From: Bacteroidaceae bacterium
GTDB lineage: Bacteria > Bacteroidota > Bacteroidia > Bacteroidales > Bacteroidaceae
Length of the DNA stretch: 33,757 nucleotides
Assembly: GCA_024401305.1 (NCBI GenBank)
Contig: JAKSLI010000036.1
Span: 1-33,757, forward strand
Reading direction: 5' to 3'
The number at the start of each line of letters is the position of its first letter. The first letter of the stretch is position 1. Positions 2,511 through 30,739 of this stretch are shown one piece after another. The translations under genes were made by a program, and so were the position numbers. The notes under the pieces are model-generated. The model saw only the letters and a list, made by a program, of their open reading frames with translations, ran no database searches and was not told the origin of the DNA.

Positions 2511-5096
2511 TTACATCGTGAGAACCTTTGTGCTTTCTTCGCCAAACTGACTAACTACGCGAACAGCAACTCTTCTGCCAGGCTCGTAAGTGAGAGGTTC
2601 GCTGCGATATGAGTAGAGTTCGTCCCATACCTCTTCATTGAAAACAAGTTTTAGAGTGCGTTCTGCATTCTTTTTTGTCTTATATGAGGCAGTATGCTCA
2701 AGACCTTTCTTCCATGCAGCAAACTCCTTCTTGTCGCCTCCGCAGAAGTGAATGCCACGAACAACGAACTTACTGTTGTCGTAGCGGTCATCTATTTCCC
2801 AATAAGCAATCTGGTCGAGAGAACGTGCCTGAACATCATCCTTTATAGGGTCGTAGATATCCAAACCACGTATCTCCACATGGCAGTGAGTATCGTCATC
2901 CTTAACGATTTCTATGTCAGGTTCACCGATAGTGATAAATGCACCTGCACCCTTATCTTTCTTCAACAAACCATCTTGCATAAGGTCATCGTGCATACGA
3001 ACCTTTGAGACAATGTAAGTGCCGAGATTATAGTCCTTGTCATTGATATTGTCCTCAAACGAGAAACCGAGGATTACAAGCCATGAAGCACCTTCGTTCA
3101 TTGCCTTTGGGCGGAACTCTTGTAATGCCATAGCCACATCCTGCTTGCTGACAGTACCAAACTTAGGACCGATATGGAAATAGACTGTTCTTTCCAATCC
3201 GTTGCCATCAGTATAATACCCCTTTGCATGCAGATAAGGACTTGCCAATGCTTCCACGCCACGGAACTTTGCCTGCTCTTCCTTACGACCGTTGCGAATG
3301 CCTGAAGTCATAAGATGAGAGAATATTCGCTCTTGGAACAAACGATTTTCTTCAACCTCATCCGCATGTTCTTCCATATCCTCTGGCGACTTGATATTGT
3401 AGCTCTGCAAGGTTTCGACTGTGAAAGGACCTGCTACACGCATTCGCTTTTTGTCCTCAAGAGGTTGATCGTAGAGGGTTTCTCTATCTGGTTCTTCATT
3501 TTGAGCTAAAGTTTTAATGGTAACATGTGGTACAGTTTTATAAACAAACCCTTGTCTAATGTCTTTCGATTCATTGTCAAATAATTCATAGTACGGATAA
3601 ACGGCTGTAGTAAGTCTTTTTTTTGCAATGTTCAACGCAATGCGACTTGTGTCCATAGTAATCCACCTACGTCCCCATTGCTCAGCAACGTATGCAGTAG
3701 TTCCACCACCACAAGTAGGATCCAGAACGAGATCTCCAGGGTCTGTTGTCATCAAAAGACAACGTTGAATCACTTTCGTTGATGTTTGAACAACATATTC
3801 AATATCTTTAGCTCCGGCTGTATCATTCCAAAGGTTATTTAATTCTTGCATAGGGAAATCCTCATGATACCTAATAAAAGAAGGCGTGTCTGAAGGACAA
3901 ATCACTCTATTCTTTTTAATCAGATTTTCCATACCTAATTTGTTGGTCGCCCAACTTTTTTTCTTTGCATGAATAATCTTCCCATTGAAAATGAAGTCAT
4001 AAAAGCATGAAGGGGTATAACCTGAGGATGTTAGTTTGTCCAATCTAAAGATCTTTGCACCTTTAGGTAGTAAAGATGGAGCTATTTGCTCTTGTGGAGT
4101 CATAGTCCTTGTTGAACCATCTGGTAACTCAACATATTTATACATTGAACCTGCACCTATCGCTTTATTCTCGAATAATTGTCGATATTTAACATTTTCA
4201 ATATCTTTCGCATACCATATCAAATAATCAGAAATTCCCGCTAATCCTGTACTTCCCAATGGAGATGTTTTTTTAAAAGTAATCAAAGAGCAAAAATTCT
4301 CACTACCAAACACCTCATCCATCAGATTGCGAACAAGATGAACATTCTCATCGCTAATCTGCACAAACACACTACCGCTTTGCGTAAGCAGTTCACGAGC
4401 TACGACAAGGCGATCACGAAGATATGACAAATAAGAATGAATGCCCAACTCCCAAGTATCTCGGAAAGCCTTAATCATCTCTGGCTCACCACTTAGGCTT
4501 TGGTCATTGTCCTTTACGTCTCGGCTATTGAGTTTCATCTGCCAATTGCTACCATACTTGATTCCGTAAGGCGGGTCAATATAGATACATTGTACCTTGC
4601 CCGCCATACCCTCACGCTTCAATAGAGAGTTCATGACAAGCAGAGAATCGCCCTGAATAAGGCGGTTCTTCCATTCTGATGAATGCTTGTAGTATTCTGC
4701 CACCTTCTCCAACTCATCCTGGATAGGATTGCTGAACTCCGTATAAGAGAACAAGTCTCCTTGAAGCTGTGCAACCTCGCTTTTCTGCTCAACAAGGTCA
4801 TAGAGGTTGTTGATGAGCATTTCTGGTTGCACATCCTCATGAACATAAAGCGAACGAATGTCCACTTTCATGTCAGGCGACTGAGTGTCCTCGTCGTCAT
4901 TATCATATTTGCCGAGCCAATACAATTCAGGATCACGTCCACGAGTGAACTCATGGCGGAATGTTTTGTATGTTGCAGTACGACTATCATCAGCCACATT
5001 GAAAGCTTCTTCTCCTGCATGTTCAGTAGTAGGAATGTCCAAACGCGTATCTTTTGGATGCTTGATGGCATCTACTGGTTTTGTTATCTTGCTCAT
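2511..5096 (-). CDS. type III restriction-modification system DNA methyltransferase (Mod)
   Basis: An 861-residue N6-adenine methyltransferase. The catalytic motif IV DPPY is at residues 174-177 and the AdoMet-binding motif I (DPTCGGGTTA) at 459-468. IV before I is the beta-class order of type III Mod proteins. The 270-440 stretch between them is the likely target-recognition region. It is AT-rich: 23 and 19 G+C in the 60-base blocks at 3841 and 3901, against 30 in the block at 3061. That suggests exchange by recombination. The C-terminal 350 residues are longer than in EcoP1 Mod. The ATG overlaps the res stop by four bases. Mod sets the recognition sequence and protects host DNA in complex with Res. 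No simple-sequence repeat suggesting phase variation is visible. Confidence 0.88.
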   Translation of the reverse strand: MSKITKPVDAIKHPKDTRLDIPTTEHAGEEAFNVADDSRTATYKTFRHEFTRGRDPELYWLGKYDNDDEDTQSPDMKVDIRSLYVHEDVQPEMLINNLYDLVEQKSEVAQLQGDLFSYTEFSNPIQDELEKVAEYYKHSSEWKNRLIQGDSLLVMNSLLKREGMAGKVQCIYIDPPYGIKYGSNWQMKLNSRDVKDNDQSLSGEPEMIKAFRDTWELGIHSYLSYLRDRLVVARELLTQSGSVFVQISDENVHLVRNLMDEVFGSENFCSLITFKKTSPLGSTGLAGISDYLIWYAKDIENVKYRQLFENKAIGAGSMYKYVELPDGSTRTMTPQEQIAPSLLPKGAKIFRLDKLTSSGYTPSCFYDFIFNGKIIHAKKKSWATNKLGMENLIKKNRVICPSDTPSFIRYHEDFPMQELNNLWNDTAGAKDIEYVVQTSTKVIQRCLLMTTDPGDLVLDPTCGGGTTAYVAEQWGRRWITMDTSRIALNIAKKRLTTAVYPYYELFDNESKDIRQGFVYKTVPHVTIKTLAQNEEPDRETLYDQPLEDKKRMRVAGPFTVETLQSYNIKSPEDMEEHADEVEENRLFQERIFSHLMTSGIRNGRKEEQAKFRGVEALASPYLHAKGYYTDGNGLERTVYFHIGPKFGTVSKQDVAMALQEFRPKAMNEGASWLVILGFSFEDNINDKDYNLGTYIVSKVRMHDDLMQDGLLKKDKGAGAFITIGEPDIEIVKDDDTHCHVEIRGLDIYDPIKDDVQARSLDQIAYWEIDDRYDNSKFVVRGIHFCGGDKKEFAAWKKGLEHTASYKTKKNAERTLKLVFNEEVWDELYSYRSEPLTYEPGRRVAVRVVSQFGEESTKVLTM

Positions 5097-8000
5097 AGTT
5101 CGTTTATTTTCTTGGTTAGTGCAGATTCTATATTGTCAATATCGGTTATCTCTATGAATGCCCATTCGCCGTATTCCTTCAAGTTGTTCACAGCAGGAAT
5201 CCAATAGTTTTGCGTGTAGAATCGTTTTGCATCCTTATTGCCAGTGCGGTCATTGCTGAAACCAGAGATCTCAATGATAAGGTTTACTTTGCGACCATCA
5301 GGCGCTTTGCAAACAGCAATGAAGTCAGTGATGTAATCATGTTCCTCGCCTTCAACTACATACGGAATCTTGAAACCGAGGAAAGAGTTCTTAACATAAT
5401 GCTCTACCTGCGGAAGTTGCTCAAGAGTCTTTGCGCAAATTTGTTCCCATGAATCCGTATCAGCGACGACATAATTCACATGACTCTTCTGGGTTGGATA
5501 GACCTCCTTGCTCGTCTTGCCGAAAACATGGTGCGAGCTTCCTTTTGGGTTATAGTAGTCAAGAATTGCTGAAACATTGGTTTCATCGGCGGCAACGCTT
5601 CCATTCTTAATGCCCTCGTAGATATTGGCAACAACCTTGTTACTATCCCAGAGCTTAACAAGTCGCTTCATTGGAACCTTATCGTTAGGATTGCCTATGA
5701 CCTCAATTTGATTAGCATACCAATATTCCACTATCTTCTTAAGCTTCAAGAACTTTTGGAACTGCCTGCCATTCTCGCGGTCGTTGTATTTCTGAGAAAT
5801 AAGTTGCTGCGTAAGGTAATAGATTATTTCCGAATCGCGCCACTCTTCCGGGTCGTTCTCCATTTTTATTGCGCCGCGCTCAATGGCATTCTGCATGAAA
5901 GTCTTGTAGGCAACCTCCTTTGCAAAGTCCATCTTGAACTTCGGTACATCCGTGAAATCAGCCGTAATCTTACCCTCAATAGTCTCTATGCGATAGCCAC
6001 GAACATTAGGGAATACAATTTCCATATCCTCCCGATCCTTCAATGCCTGAACAAGCACTTTTGGCTGCTGAGGTTGAGGCTTTGCTGTACCACCACTCTT
6101 GAAAGTCTTGAACGGCACACCGATGATGCGAGCGTATTCTGGAGGGAACTTATACACAATGTTTTCTTCCTTGTAACGCTTAAGGTTCTTTATGGCAATC
6201 TCGTTGCCATCCTTATCGTATGGACGAAGGTCGTAGCTACAACGACGCAACGCACGACCAGCAACCTGTTCGCAAAGCAACTGACTGCCAAAAGCACGAA
6301 TGCCGCAAACATGCGTCACAGTATTGGCGTCCCAACCTTCCGTTAGCATACTTACGCTTACTACACACTTGATATGCGCACCCAACTTGCCAGGTTTGCC
6401 CACCGTGTTCACTACTTCACGAAGAATGTCGCCATCAGCAAGTTTGTCGGCACTTCCCGCTCCATGAAGAATAGCATACTCACGCTTGAAGTTGCTTATT
6501 TCTTCTCGGAACATAGTCTTGAACTCTTCATCGACAACAGCACCTGCTTGCTCCAACTGACTGCTATCTATAAGCAGAGTTGGCGCTTTGCGAACAGGCA
6601 ATCCTTCGCGAGTGTAATTGCTGAACACATCAAACATTCCGGCTACATTTATCGGATTGCCATTTTCATCCTCGTCCTTCTTGTATCCAGCTATGTATTT
6701 GTAAACTTCCTTTGAAACTGTAGTATTGTTGCAAACTACGATAAGTACTGGAGGAGTAGAGAAAAGCTCTGCTGCCATTTCGCCCATCTGTCCGAGTTCT
6801 TGCGTGTAAGATTCATAGTCCTTCACAAACTGGTCAAGTGCTGAATTTAGCAATGCAGGCAAATGTGGAGCAGCTTCGAATTCCTTCTTTATCTCCTTGC
6901 CATCCGCATTCTTCTCCTTTCGGATTGTTTTCTGTCCTTTCTTTGGCAGTTGCTTGCTTATGTGTTTGTAGATATTGCGCAGTTTTGGCTCATCAAGGTC
7001 ATGAGTGTTGTCATAGCTTGGAAGGAACGGAATCTTGACAAGTCCGCTCTCAATGGCATCAACAAGTCCAAAATCACTCACTACCCATGGGAACAAAGAG
7101 TATTCCGGGTATCCAGAACCCTTCAGATAATAAGGTGTAGCGGAAAGATCATATATGTGCTGAAGTTTATAGCCAAGTTTCTTCATTTGGCGTAAACCTT
7201 CATACCACACCATAGCCTTCTCGTTTTCTTCCTCTGTTTCCTTAACTTCATCATCACGTTTTGCATCATCCTTCTTAGGCAGATAGCAGTGGTGGGCTTC
7301 ATCATTGATAACGAGCAGTCGCTTTCCCTTCATACCCTTTCCGAGTACTCTGCTAAGTACAACAGAGAAGTCTTCCTTCTCTTGCTGCTTGATCATTTCG
7401 CCATCCTTATAGACAAGTTTACCATCCATCGGACTTGCCTTCTTGCCAGAGAAGACCTTCGGTTCGAAAGTGTGATAGTTGGTAATGGTAATGCAAGAAT
7501 TTATTCCTTCAAAAAGGCGCTCGTAATTGTATGGGATAAGACCACGAAGATAATAGTAGTCATTCTTCATGTTGCTTTGCTTGGTGCTTTCGTCTATACG
7601 AAGAACGCCAAGGCGGTCACGAATGGTAATGCCTGGAGCTACTATCAGAAAATGGTCAGCAAAACGTGTGTCTTGGATGTTCACCTTTTTGTTTATGTAG
7701 TTGTAGAGAATGAGCATAGCCATGACAACGGTCTTACCTGTTCCCGTAGCCATCTTGAATGCTGTTCGTGGAAGCACATCTTCTTCAAGCGAACTAACAG
7801 AATGCTGACGCTCGTGAAGCAGATGAAGAAGGTAACGTCCCTTGTTCGGGTCGCGGTCGGCAACTTCATTCAAATAAACAGCAGTTTCCACGGCTTCACG
7901 CTGGCAGAAGAACAGTCGCATATTGAATGCACGTTCCTTGTTGTTGAACCAATAATTCAGCAACTCACGAGTTACGCGAGTCGTATTAGGATAACCAGCC

Positions 8001-8251
8001 TCACGCCATTTCTTTATCTCTGCACGAATGCCATTGATGAACTCGGCATCTGCATCCTCGTCGTAGAATGCAGAATCATCAAACATTTTCCGTTGAGTAT
8101 TGGTGTTTGGTGTAATGCCAATATCCATACTGAAAGGTCGTCTGCCATCCAGTATGGTGTTATAGTCAAGGTTTCCATCCGTAGAACCATAATGATACAA
8201 TGGCTCCTCGTATGGATTATTCAGAATAGGAGATTTTGAAGCATCTTCCAT
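5093..8251 (-). CDS. type III restriction endonuclease subunit (Res), DEAD/DEAH helicase-nuclease
   Basis: A 1052-residue SF2 helicase-nuclease. Walker A is ATGTGKT (168-174), motif II DEAH (317-320), motif III SATP (370-373) and motif VI QVAGRALRR near 690. The C-terminal nuclease region has DFIAV (D976) and LIIEISG (E994, S996). A canonical PD-(D/E)xK site would have Lys two residues after the Glu, so the site is either a variant or uses the nearby NKDAKR lysines; I recall related proteins with E-x-T/S-G. Res precedes mod with a four-base overlap, opposite to the classical mod-res order. No promoter box lies in the 30 bases before the ATG, so transcription probably starts at the minus-strand promoters at 8661 or 8903, giving a long structured leader. 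Confidence 0.87.
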   Translation of the reverse strand: MEDASKSPILNNPYEEPLYHYGSTDGNLDYNTILDGRRPFSMDIGITPNTNTQRKMFDDSAFYDEDADAEFINGIRAEIKKWREAGYPNTTRVTRELLNYWFNNKERAFNMRLFFCQREAVETAVYLNEVADRDPNKGRYLLHLLHERQHSVSSLEEDVLPRTAFKMATGTGKTVVMAMLILYNYINKKVNIQDTRFADHFLIVAPGITIRDRLGVLRIDESTKQSNMKNDYYYLRGLIPYNYERLFEGINSCITITNYHTFEPKVFSGKKASPMDGKLVYKDGEMIKQQEKEDFSVVLSRVLGKGMKGKRLLVINDEAHHCYLPKKDDAKRDDEVKETEEENEKAMVWYEGLRQMKKLGYKLQHIYDLSATPYYLKGSGYPEYSLFPWVVSDFGLVDAIESGLVKIPFLPSYDNTHDLDEPKLRNIYKHISKQLPKKGQKTIRKEKNADGKEIKKEFEAAPHLPALLNSALDQFVKDYESYTQELGQMGEMAAELFSTPPVLIVVCNNTTVSKEVYKYIAGYKKDEDENGNPINVAGMFDVFSNYTREGLPVRKAPTLLIDSSQLEQAGAVVDEEFKTMFREEISNFKREYAILHGAGSADKLADGDILREVVNTVGKPGKLGAHIKCVVSVSMLTEGWDANTVTHVCGIRAFGSQLLCEQVAGRALRRCSYDLRPYDKDGNEIAIKNLKRYKEENIVYKFPPEYARIIGVPFKTFKSGGTAKPQPQQPKVLVQALKDREDMEIVFPNVRGYRIETIEGKITADFTDVPKFKMDFAKEVAYKTFMQNAIERGAIKMENDPEEWRDSEIIYYLTQQLISQKYNDRENGRQFQKFLKLKKIVEYWYANQIEVIGNPNDKVPMKRLVKLWDSNKVVANIYEGIKNGSVAADETNVSAILDYYNPKGSSHHVFGKTSKEVYPTQKSHVNYVVADTDSWEQICAKTLEQLPQVEHYVKNSFLGFKIPYVVEGEEHDYITDFIAVCKAPDGRKVNLIIEISGFSNDRTGNKDAKRFYTQNYWIPAVNNLKEYGEWAFIEITDIDNIESALTKKINEL

Positions 8252-28363: not shown

Positions 28364-30517
28364 TTATTCTTCAGTCTCAGCATCGTGAGCTGCGATGAGC
28401 TGCTGCTGGATGTCGTTAGGAACGAGTTCGTAAGAAGCGAACTTAGATGTGAATGAAGCACGACCACCAGTGATAGAGCTGAGAGCGATAGAGTAGTTAG
28501 AGAGCTCCTTCAATGGAATCTTAGCCTGAAGCTTCTGGTAACCAGCCTCAGAATCCATACCCATGATCATTGCGCGGCGACCCTGGAGGTCAGACATTAC
28601 GTCACCCATGTAGTCAGATGGCACGAATACCTCAAGGTCATAGACTGGCTCAAGAACCTTAGGACCTGCGCTGCGGAATGCCTCTGCGAATGCCTGGCGA
28701 CCAGCGAGCATGAATGAAAGTTCGTTAGAGTCAACCGGGTGCATCTTACCATCGTAAACGATTACGCGAACGTCACGAGCGTAAGAACCAGTGAGAGGTC
28801 CCTGTTCCATGCGCTCCATGATACCCTTGAGGATAGCTGGCATGAAACGAGTATCGATAGCACCACCGACAACAGAGTTCATGAAGACGAGCTTGCCTCC
28901 CCATTCGAGGTCGATTTCCTCGCGTGAACGGATGTTCATCTTGAACTCCTGACCATTGAAGTGATATACTGTTGGGTCTGGCATACCGTCTGCGTAAGGC
29001 TCAACGATGAGGTGAACTTCACCGAACTGACCAGCACCACCCGACTGCTTCTTGTGACGATAGTCAGCGCGAGCAACCTTTGTGATAGTCTCACGATAAG
29101 GGATGCGAGGCTCCTGATATTCAATCTGGATCTTCTCGTTGTTCTCCATACGCCACTTGAGAGTGCGGAGGTGGAATTCACCTTGACCGTGAACGAGGAT
29201 CTGACGGAGTTCCTTGCTCTGCTCAACAACCCATGTTGGGTCTTCCTGACGCATCTTGATGAGGGCAGACATCATCTTTTCTGTCTCAGACTCATTCTTT
29301 GCAACGATAGCGCGAGAGTACTTAGAGTTTGGATAGCGGATGAAGTCGAACTTGTTCTCAACATCCTTTGCGTTGAGAGTGTTGCCAGTCTTCACGTCCT
29401 TGAGCTTCACTGTACAACCGATGTCACCAGCGTTGAGTTGGTCAACAGGCTGACGGTTAGCACCAGCACAAGTATAGAGAGTACCGATACGCTCCTTAGA
29501 ACCACGGTCTGCATTAGCGAGGTCATCACCAGGCTTAACGCTACCCTGCATTACCTTGAAGTAAGAAACCTCACCGATGTGTGGCTCTACACCAGTCTTG
29601 AAGAAGTAGAGAGAAGCAGGAGAAGCAGAATCAGGAGTAACTTCCTCACCGCGAGTGTTGTGAACCTTAGGCATGTCAGAAACGAAAGGTACAACATTGC
29701 CGAGGAATTCCATCAAGCGGCGAACGCCCATTGACTTGCCTGCACATACGCAGAATACAGGGAAGATAGAGCGAGTAACCAAGCCCTTACGGATACCTTC
29801 ACGCATCTCGTCCTCTGTAAGAGTTTCCTCTTCGAAGAACTTCTCCATGAGAGCCTCGTCATTCTCGGCAGCAGCCTCAACGAGAGCCTTGTGGAGTTCC
29901 ATAGCCTTATCCATTTCCTCAGCAGGGATTTCCTCGATAATAGGAGCACCACCTTCAGGACCCCAAGAGTACTTCTTCATGAGAAGGACATCGATGAGAG
30001 AGTTGAAGTTAGGGCCAGTCTCAAGAGGATACTGAATCTGAACGCACTTAGAACCGTAGATTTCCTGCATCTGTGCAACAACAGAATCGAAGTCGCAGTT
30101 TTCCTTGTCAAGCTGGTTAACGAGGAAGATAACAGGCTTCTTGAGCTTCTCAGTGTAGCGGAAGTTGTTCTGAGTGCCTACCTCTGGACCATACTGTCCA
30201 TTAATAAGAATAACTGCCTGGTCTGTTACATTGAGCGCAGTGATGGCACCGCCCACGAAGTCGTCAGAACCCGGACAGTCAATGATGTTCAATTTCTTGC
30301 CGAGCCATTCCACGTTGAATACAGTAGAGAATACAGAGTAACCGTACTCCTGCTCAACAGGGAAATAGTCGCTAACTGTGTTTTTTGCGTCAACAGAACC
30401 GCGACGCTTAATCACCCCGCTCTCATAAAGGAGAGCTTCTGCGAGAGTGGTCTTACCAGAACCTGCACTACCCAAGAGGGCAATGTTCTTAATCTCGTTA
30501 GTTTGGAAAGTTTTCAT
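28364..30517 (-). CDS. EF-G paralog (EF-G2 type) with degenerate GTPase motifs
   Basis: A 717-residue elongation factor G-like protein with all five domains. The P-loop is GSAGSGKT (16-23). The switch I end reads EQEYGYSVFS where EF-G has the RGIT motif. The G3 motif is DCPGSDDF (80-87), so the catalytic His of DTPGHVDF is Ser84. G4 is NQLD (134-137) instead of NKxD. Domains II-V follow at about 300-717, with the domain IV segment GGAGQFGEVHL. These changes match what is known of EF-G2 in Bacteroides thetaiotaomicron, reported to promote translocation without GTP hydrolysis during carbon limitation and gut colonisation. This is therefore a paralog, not the housekeeping fusA. It is convergent with the MBL gene and ends in a repeat element. 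Confidence 0.88.
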   Translation of the reverse strand: MKTFQTNEIKNIALLGSAGSGKTTLAEALLYESGVIKRRGSVDAKNTVSDYFPVEQEYGYSVFSTVFNVEWLGKKLNIIDCPGSDDFVGGAITALNVTDQAVILINGQYGPEVGTQNNFRYTEKLKKPVIFLVNQLDKENCDFDSVVAQMQEIYGSKCVQIQYPLETGPNFNSLIDVLLMKKYSWGPEGGAPIIEEIPAEEMDKAMELHKALVEAAAENDEALMEKFFEEETLTEDEMREGIRKGLVTRSIFPVFCVCAGKSMGVRRLMEFLGNVVPFVSDMPKVHNTRGEEVTPDSASPASLYFFKTGVEPHIGEVSYFKVMQGSVKPGDDLANADRGSKERIGTLYTCAGANRQPVDQLNAGDIGCTVKLKDVKTGNTLNAKDVENKFDFIRYPNSKYSRAIVAKNESETEKMMSALIKMRQEDPTWVVEQSKELRQILVHGQGEFHLRTLKWRMENNEKIQIEYQEPRIPYRETITKVARADYRHKKQSGGAGQFGEVHLIVEPYADGMPDPTVYHFNGQEFKMNIRSREEIDLEWGGKLVFMNSVVGGAIDTRFMPAILKGIMERMEQGPLTGSYARDVRVIVYDGKMHPVDSNELSFMLAGRQAFAEAFRSAGPKVLEPVYDLEVFVPSDYMGDVMSDLQGRRAMIMGMDSEAGYQKLQAKIPLKELSNYSIALSSITGGRASFTSKFASYELVPNDIQQQLIAAHDAETEE

Positions 30518-30672
30518 AGTATCTATTTTTTGGTGTTTTTGTTAGATATAGCAATGCAATTTTGACTTAAAGCAAATGGAAAACCGACATAAATCAGCAT
30601 CACAATTGCGTTAAATCAGCGGTAAAATTAAAACTTTTTCTTGTATCAGCAAAATAAATCAACAAAAATCTT

Positions 30673-30680
30673 TACTTTTG
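30673..30680 (+). promoter_or_regulatory. TACTTTTG promoter box for hemW
   Basis: TACTTTTG fits the TAnnTTTG element; no good TTTG lies at the expected distance upstream. It is 86 bases before the hemW ATG. The gap 30518-30765 otherwise holds only repeats and AT-rich DNA. Confidence 0.5.
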
Positions 30681-30686
30681 CAACGA

Positions 30687-30739
30687 TTTTTAAGGTTTTC
30701 CGTGCCTTTTGGGGCATAATATTCCTCAAAACCTTAAAA
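30687..30739 (+). other. 12-bp inverted repeat in the hemW leader
   Basis: TTTTAAGGTTTT (30687-30698) is the exact reverse complement of AAAACCTTAAAA (30728-30739). The right arm lies in the octamer array. The stem would place the array, and perhaps the start region, in a hairpin. Confidence 0.6.

Follow-up and report, generated by a model that had tools for sequence, protein, structure and literature searches.

The EFG II subfamily of elongation factors was defined by Margus et al. 2011 (PMC3150367), where a relaxed switch I/G2 region is given as a trait of the subfamily and YGYSV as its Bacteroidetes motif. For the EF-G2 of Bacteroides thetaiotaomicron, the orthologue of the factor described here, non-hydrolytic translocation is stated in PMC10294740 and PMC12775393, both citing Han et al., and in the wording of the former EF-G2 "enables GTP-independent translation". 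Its gene, fusA2, is induced on carbon limitation by BT4338 (Cur), a regulator described as Crp/Fnr-like (PMC10294740), which binds a 22-bp site before fusA2; the gene is needed for gut colonisation (PMC6989115) and its expression peaks during carbon deprivation (PMC10994844). Two further second EF-G factors are cited in PMC3150367: the EF-G2 of Mycobacterium smegmatis, as nucleotide-binding without ribosome-dependent GTPase activity, and the EF-G-2 of Thermus thermophilus, as a factor that both binds GTP and hydrolyses it and that supports poly(Phe) synthesis (citing Connell 2007).

We analysed a 33,757-nt stretch of DNA from a Bacteroidaceae bacterium (contig JAKSLI010000036.1), termed here the window, which carries on its minus strand a fusA2-type gene for EF-G2 (28364..30517), an open reading frame of 717 aa running from ATG to TAA and assigned by profile searches and a tree. 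The five EF-G domains all pass their Pfam cut-offs: GTP_EFTU (residues 8–277), EF-G domain II (300–382), EFG_III (396–467), EFG_IV, which is matched in two stretches, and EFG_C (621–706). Alignment with E. coli EF-G places the GTPase motifs, all on the minus strand. The G1/P-loop reads GSAGSGKT (residues 16–23, 30449..30472; AHIDAGKT in E. coli), switch I reads YFPVEQEYGYSVF (residues 51–63, 30329..30367) with YGYSV replacing RGITI, G3 reads DCPGSDDF (residues 80–87, 30257..30280; DTPGHVDF in E. coli) and G4 reads NQLD (residues 134–137, 30107..30118; NKMD in E. coli). Ser84 of G3 (30266–30268, minus strand) occupies the column that holds His in E. coli and canonical EF-G. In addition, domain IV carries an insert (residues 512–539, 28901..28984, minus strand) that remains unaligned to T. 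thermophilus EF-G. The initial annotation had described an EF-G paralog with a complete domain set, a P-loop, Ser for His in G3, NQLD as G4 and a switch I devoid of RGIT, and each of these points is confirmed by the translation, the alignment and the Pfam scores. Elsewhere in the window, two large adjacent ORFs of 861 and 1052 aa (2511–8251, minus strand) resemble, by eye from their translations, the two subunits (modification and restriction) of type III restriction systems.

The protein matches the NCBIfam family NF058620 (EFG2_Bacteroid, "elongation factor G2") over positions 1–717 of 717 with 1333 bits, the cut-off being 1000, and reaches 495 of the 659 bits required by TIGR00484, the canonical EF-G equivalog. 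It departs from canonical EF-G in score, in RGITI and in the catalytic His, having YGYSV and S84 instead. The best solved relative (PDB 7uvp and 8dmf) aligns in one stretch over window residues 1–714 with 1308 bits and carries the same G3, G4 and YGYSV letters; T. thermophilus EF-G aligns in two stretches, 6–511 and 540–709. At 1333 and 1308 bits, the motif and family resemblance of the window protein is not due to chance. The chains 7uvp and 8dmf are deposited as "Tetracycline resistance protein TetQ", and their sequence is close to Bacteroidales EF-G2; the label is likely a carried-over misannotation, judging from that sequence. A TetQ-like identity for the window protein, considered on account of the PDB label, was rejected, the TetQ model scoring 119 bits for a cut-off of 1425.

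For the comparison within the family, 229 loci gave 215 aligned rows including the window. Fifteen loci gave no row: five have frames under 600 aa (L001, L006, L112, L130, and L206), four are copies of the window (L002, L003, L007, and L132) and six, by subtraction, lack an EF-G-like ORF. The row sets are non-random, as loci were taken best match first and some regions were hand-picked from lists of limited length. In a tree built from 90 of the aligned rows by a quick method with SH-aLRT support only, the window EF-G2 falls inside the Prevotella-like EF-G2 rows, and these nest within Bacteroidales EF-G2 (the sets of 2, 3, and 13 rows are starred). Among the best 80 of 587 relatives, the nearest named neighbour is a Bacteroidaceae metagenome-assembled genome from horse faeces (L012; 99% over residues 22–717), followed by Prevotella-like genomes at 82–88%. 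By its sequence, the window gene is orthologous to Bacteroides EF-G2 (fusA2) and of the Prevotella-like type; the kinship proposed in the initial annotation is borne out by the NF058620 score, the match to 7uvp/8dmf, a survey of the order and the tree. It is an unremarkable member of a family already described and widespread in Bacteroidales.

In the survey of the order, 177 of 198 sampled genomes, the window genome included, pass the NF058620 cut-off, and the presence of EF-G2 here is no surprise. All 14 well-known control genomes match the model, only one of them over the cut-off. A further 14 of the 198 genomes have a weak match alone (E about 1e-95 to 1e-109), which we take as canonical EF-G; because 11 of these 14 genomes are at least 90% complete, EF-G2 is apparently losable. 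Within the genus, an EF-G2-like frame is found in 11 of 11 genomes by score and frame length, and all four of these that were aligned have both DCPGSDDF and NQLD. The window genome, which is 86% complete, also holds a separate canonical EF-G fragment, the C-terminal 254 aa, truncated by the contig end (C66 3–767) and followed by an ORF that resembles ribosomal protein S10 by eye; EF-G2 is then not the only EF-G of this genome, whereas a sole EF-G would have told against the initial annotation. The N-terminal half of this canonical EF-G was not located, and none of the nine PF00009 matches of the genome lies on C66. Three other genomes of the order (G001, G003, and G005) have two EF-G genes over the TIGR00484 cut-off plus an EF-G2-like gene, that is, three EF-G-type genes.

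The G3 column of the 215-row alignment holds His in 40 rows; 39 of these are canonical EF-G, and the one left over is, by subtraction, a different translational GTPase. His is thus present in 39 of 39 canonical rows and in none of the 175 EFG II rows (at most 173 genes, L137/L193 and L138/L194 being duplicates), a division that is partly circular for the rows off the tree, sorted into EF-G1 and EFG II by their originating search, and for five rows (four from the EF-G1 search and L229) sorted by motifs. The EFG II rows have Ser (96), Leu (31), Phe (19), Tyr (14), Ala (14), or Pro (1) at this position. EFG II outside Bacteroidota is represented by two PDB chains only; the G3 of T. thermophilus EF-G-2 (1WDT) reads DAPGYGDF, with Tyr for His, and that of the solved EF-G-like chain 9k0z reads DTPGYADF. 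On the 90-row tree, from whose construction the G3 column and the insert were left out, a single change explains the distribution of His, with 22 His rows and 68 others on the two sides of one branch; the change is read as a loss and not as a gain because canonical EF-G generally has the His.

These distributions do not agree with the earlier proposal that B. thetaiotaomicron EF-G2 differs from normal EF-G in the loss of exactly these residues. Indeed, His is missing from 175 of 175 EFG II rows and from T. thermophilus EF-G-2, YGYSV is the published Bacteroidetes EFG II motif, and it is the domain IV insert, unmentioned in that proposal, that sets the branch apart. Because T. thermophilus EF-G-2 has Tyr in place of His, yet is cited as hydrolysing GTP (PMC3150367), loss of His alone is no predictor of a dead GTPase. 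A missing His does not by itself mean missing GTP hydrolysis, and the step from "His missing" to "works without GTP hydrolysis" is unsafe. Neither "histidine" nor "His" occurs as a whole word in the main text of PMC3150367.

The length of the insert was followed as the distance from GAGQ to VVGG in domain IV, which is 25–29 residues in canonical EF-G rows. It is 26 in all 30 of the EFG II rows that scored best in the phylum search and in 5 of 10 further same-phylum rows, the other 5 having 46. A distance of 46 is also found in 10 of 10 further same-class rows and in a single EFG II row that came from the second matches of that search. The distance is 55 in the window and throughout the sets of 80 Prevotella-like and 20 top-scoring Bacteroidales loci, while the 19 lower-scoring or hand-picked Bacteroidales rows are variable (46 in 10, 55 in 4, 59 in 1, and 71 in 4). 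The insert is absent in 35 EFG II rows of other Bacteroidota lineages (30/30 and 5/10, in two sets). Three changes are needed on the tree for the insert states (none, 20, and 29 or more), and EFG II rows that lack the insert fall outside the branch that bears it. Over 15 EF-G2 proteins the mean column identity is 85%, and M512, P513, P515, Q523, E524, and W539 of the insert are invariant. Han et al. 2023 reportedly describe a 26-residue region, unique to EF-G2, on which both protein synthesis and release of the factor from the ribosome depend, and the same region is said to be responsible for the absent GTPase activity; we take the insert at residues 512–539 to be, most likely, this region. 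A further change concerns the guanine-recognising Asp of G4, which is Glu in 11 of the 19 lower-scoring or hand-picked Bacteroidales rows of the alignment (NHLE in 9, NQLE in 2; L192, L195–L198, and L200–L205) and corresponds to two changes on the tree.

The region between fusA2 and the divergent ORF starting at 30709, which is hemW-like by eye, should hold the fusA2 promoter (30518..30708, read on the minus strand for fusA2). No BT4338/Cur box with three or fewer mismatches is found in this intergenic region, and the best match to the TATGTTnTAnAACATA-like box in the 300 bases upstream of the window gene has five mismatches. Among the 19 top-scoring Bacteroidales loci, 4 have the box before fusA2 with 0 or 1 mismatch; none of the 76 Prevotella-like loci does, nor any of the 20 lower-scoring Bacteroidales loci (where at most 200 bases were read, vs 300 elsewhere) or of the 116 shuffled regions. 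The corresponding counts for exactly two mismatches are 4 of 19, 3 of 76, 0 of 20, and 1 of 116, and a few Prevotella-like loci may carry weaker Cur boxes. As to the regulator, the Crp helix-turn-helix model PF13545 has one match in the 86%-complete window genome, at 24.5 bits (cut-off 27) within a 1382-aa frame, and a match over the cut-off in 5 of 7 same-genus genomes tested. A candidate Cur, a Crp/Fnr protein shared by all 8 genomes that were tested from outside the genus, has no match in the 86%-complete window genome; among 11 same-genus genomes it has a strong match in three and a weak one in another.

From these sequences, starvation control by Cur is doubtful in this organism; EF-G2 has probably been kept and its known Cur control not. 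The idea that the Bacteroides system extends to this organism stands for the protein, whose orthologue is present, and not for control by Cur under carbon limitation, against which the sequence speaks. Since the Cur box was not found, induction, if any, would need another regulator. The presence of the protein, which is general, is in this way separated from its known starvation control, which apparently is not.

Of the loci L013–L091, 76 were surveyed upstream of fusA2; in 38 of these 76 Prevotella-like loci the motif TGCAAAn1-3TACTAAT stands 110–187 nt before fusA2, always on the coding strand, with three occurrences elsewhere in those loci. Seven genomes have 2 to 28 such sites each; the motif precedes EF-G2 in G200 (G200:C23:96863), G201 (G201:C1:363689), G207 (G207:C3:1946721), and G208 (G208:C30:38431), and does not in G198, G206, and G000. 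The intergenic region of the window has a degenerate copy, TGCAAAAGTAAAGAT (30668–30682), with three mismatches, and the whole window has 18 matches with up to three mismatches vs 12 expected by chance. An ORF starts within 400 bases downstream on the same strand in 8 of 20 opened motif loci, two of the eight being fusA2. In G200 many of the copies, and in G000 some of them, belong to arrays that repeat about every 77 bases; copies of one 15-mer at about this period are seen at G000:C82:4181–4425 and G200:C17:323527–324921, and such arrays look like CRISPR. The motif is a possible Prevotella fusA2 promoter element, to be considered a lead only, as this reading is weakened by the few downstream ORF starts, the array copies and the near-chance count in the window.

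Beyond the observed orthology, domain layout, residue changes and insert, we consider it very probable that the window protein is a Prevotella-like fusA2 orthologue that binds guanine nucleotide, docks in the A site and carries out slow translocation without productive GTP hydrolysis, beside a canonical EF-G. Guanine nucleotide would be bound through the modified P-loop and NQLD, and domains II–V would dock the factor in the ribosomal A site as in EF-G. By analogy with B. thetaiotaomicron, docking and binding would then drive slow movement of tRNA and mRNA without productive hydrolysis. The domain IV insert may replace hydrolysis in releasing the factor from the ribosome, while the canonical EF-G would serve fast growth. 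A different reading, that of an EFG II factor still hydrolysing GTP slowly or intrinsically, in which loss of His alters rate or timing, draws on T. thermophilus EF-G-2, which lacks the His (DAPGYGDF) and is cited as GTP-hydrolysing and poly(Phe)-active (PMC3150367), and on the GKT of the P-loop and the G4 Asp retained in the window protein. However, the latter has the Bacteroidales-type insert, its close orthologue is a factor for which hydrolysis-free function has been reported, and the insert-free EFG II rows fall outside its branch, which makes slow hydrolysis unlikely.

Far less room is left for a ribosome-protection or recycling factor of the TetQ or spdEFG2 type in place of a translocase. 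The TetQ label of 7uvp/8dmf and a match to NF012153 (tet_protect) point in this direction, but that match, at 257 bits, is far under its cut-off of 775, the TetQ score also stays below its own while EF-G2 is matched with 1333 bits, and the 7uvp label looks like a carry-over of naming; we regard this identity as very improbable. We give just as little weight to a decaying paralog under relaxed constraint and little used in this organism. EFG II evolves fast (PMC3150367), the known regulatory box was not found upstream, and loss seems tolerated in the 14 of 198 genomes with a weak match only; nevertheless, the 717-aa frame is intact, the conservation over 15 EF-G2 proteins extends to invariant residues inside the insert, and the EF-G2-like frame recurs in all 11 same-genus genomes, four of them aligned. 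A translocase working without productive hydrolysis remains our preferred reading.

Taken jointly, the His, insert and G4 patterns allow a tentative scenario, which we hold to be possible and on balance rather doubtful. Loss of His would be a founding trait of EFG II, at least across Bacteroidota, and would have occurred once, before the insert; the insert would have arisen later with about 20 residues and then grown (relative to EFG II without insert, to 29 in the window and to as many as 45), and G4 Asp would have turned to Glu (NHLE/NQLE) in one Bacteroidales branch. EF-G2 could on this view stand last in a series of steps that leads from hydrolysing to His-independent to non-hydrolysing, perhaps nucleotide-indifferent, translocases, with the Prevotella-like EF-G2 cut loose from Cur and, in many cases, placed under another promoter element, TGCAAAnnTACTAAT. 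The order of His first, insert later and G4 last is the sole part that goes beyond the published work we found, and its basis is a non-random sample of one phylum plus two solved chains. Because the insert varies in length by branch, nature offers here a graded series in which the cause of the loss of hydrolysis could be tested, and this series bears on the debate over the role of GTP hydrolysis in translocation.

When compared with the known systems, the window protein shares the name that NCBIfam gives to B. thetaiotaomicron EF-G2 (BT2167, fusA2), a likeness by family profile. In contrast to B. thetaiotaomicron, neither a Cur/BT4338 box before the gene nor, in the 86%-complete genome, a Crp/Fnr (Cur-like) gene was found here. 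It resembles T. thermophilus EF-G-2 (1WDT/2DY1) as an EFG II member with the His replaced, by Tyr in that case; the match of the Thermus factor to it, however, is split in two, with residue 509 as the end of the better stretch, a pattern expected of an EF-G lacking the insert, and that factor is cited as hydrolysing GTP (PMC3150367). The insert likewise distinguishes the window protein from the 35 EFG II rows of other Bacteroidota lineages. M. smegmatis EF-G2, from a different phylum and compared by description only, is similarly a second EF-G cited without ribosome-dependent GTPase activity (PMC3150367). There is also agreement with the published description of EFG II by Margus et al. 2011 (PMC3150367), whose relaxed G2 with Ser for Thr, occurrence as an extra copy beside canonical EF-G and Bacteroidetes sub-subgroup are all recognised here, the YGYSV of the window protein being the motif published for Bacteroidetes EFG II.
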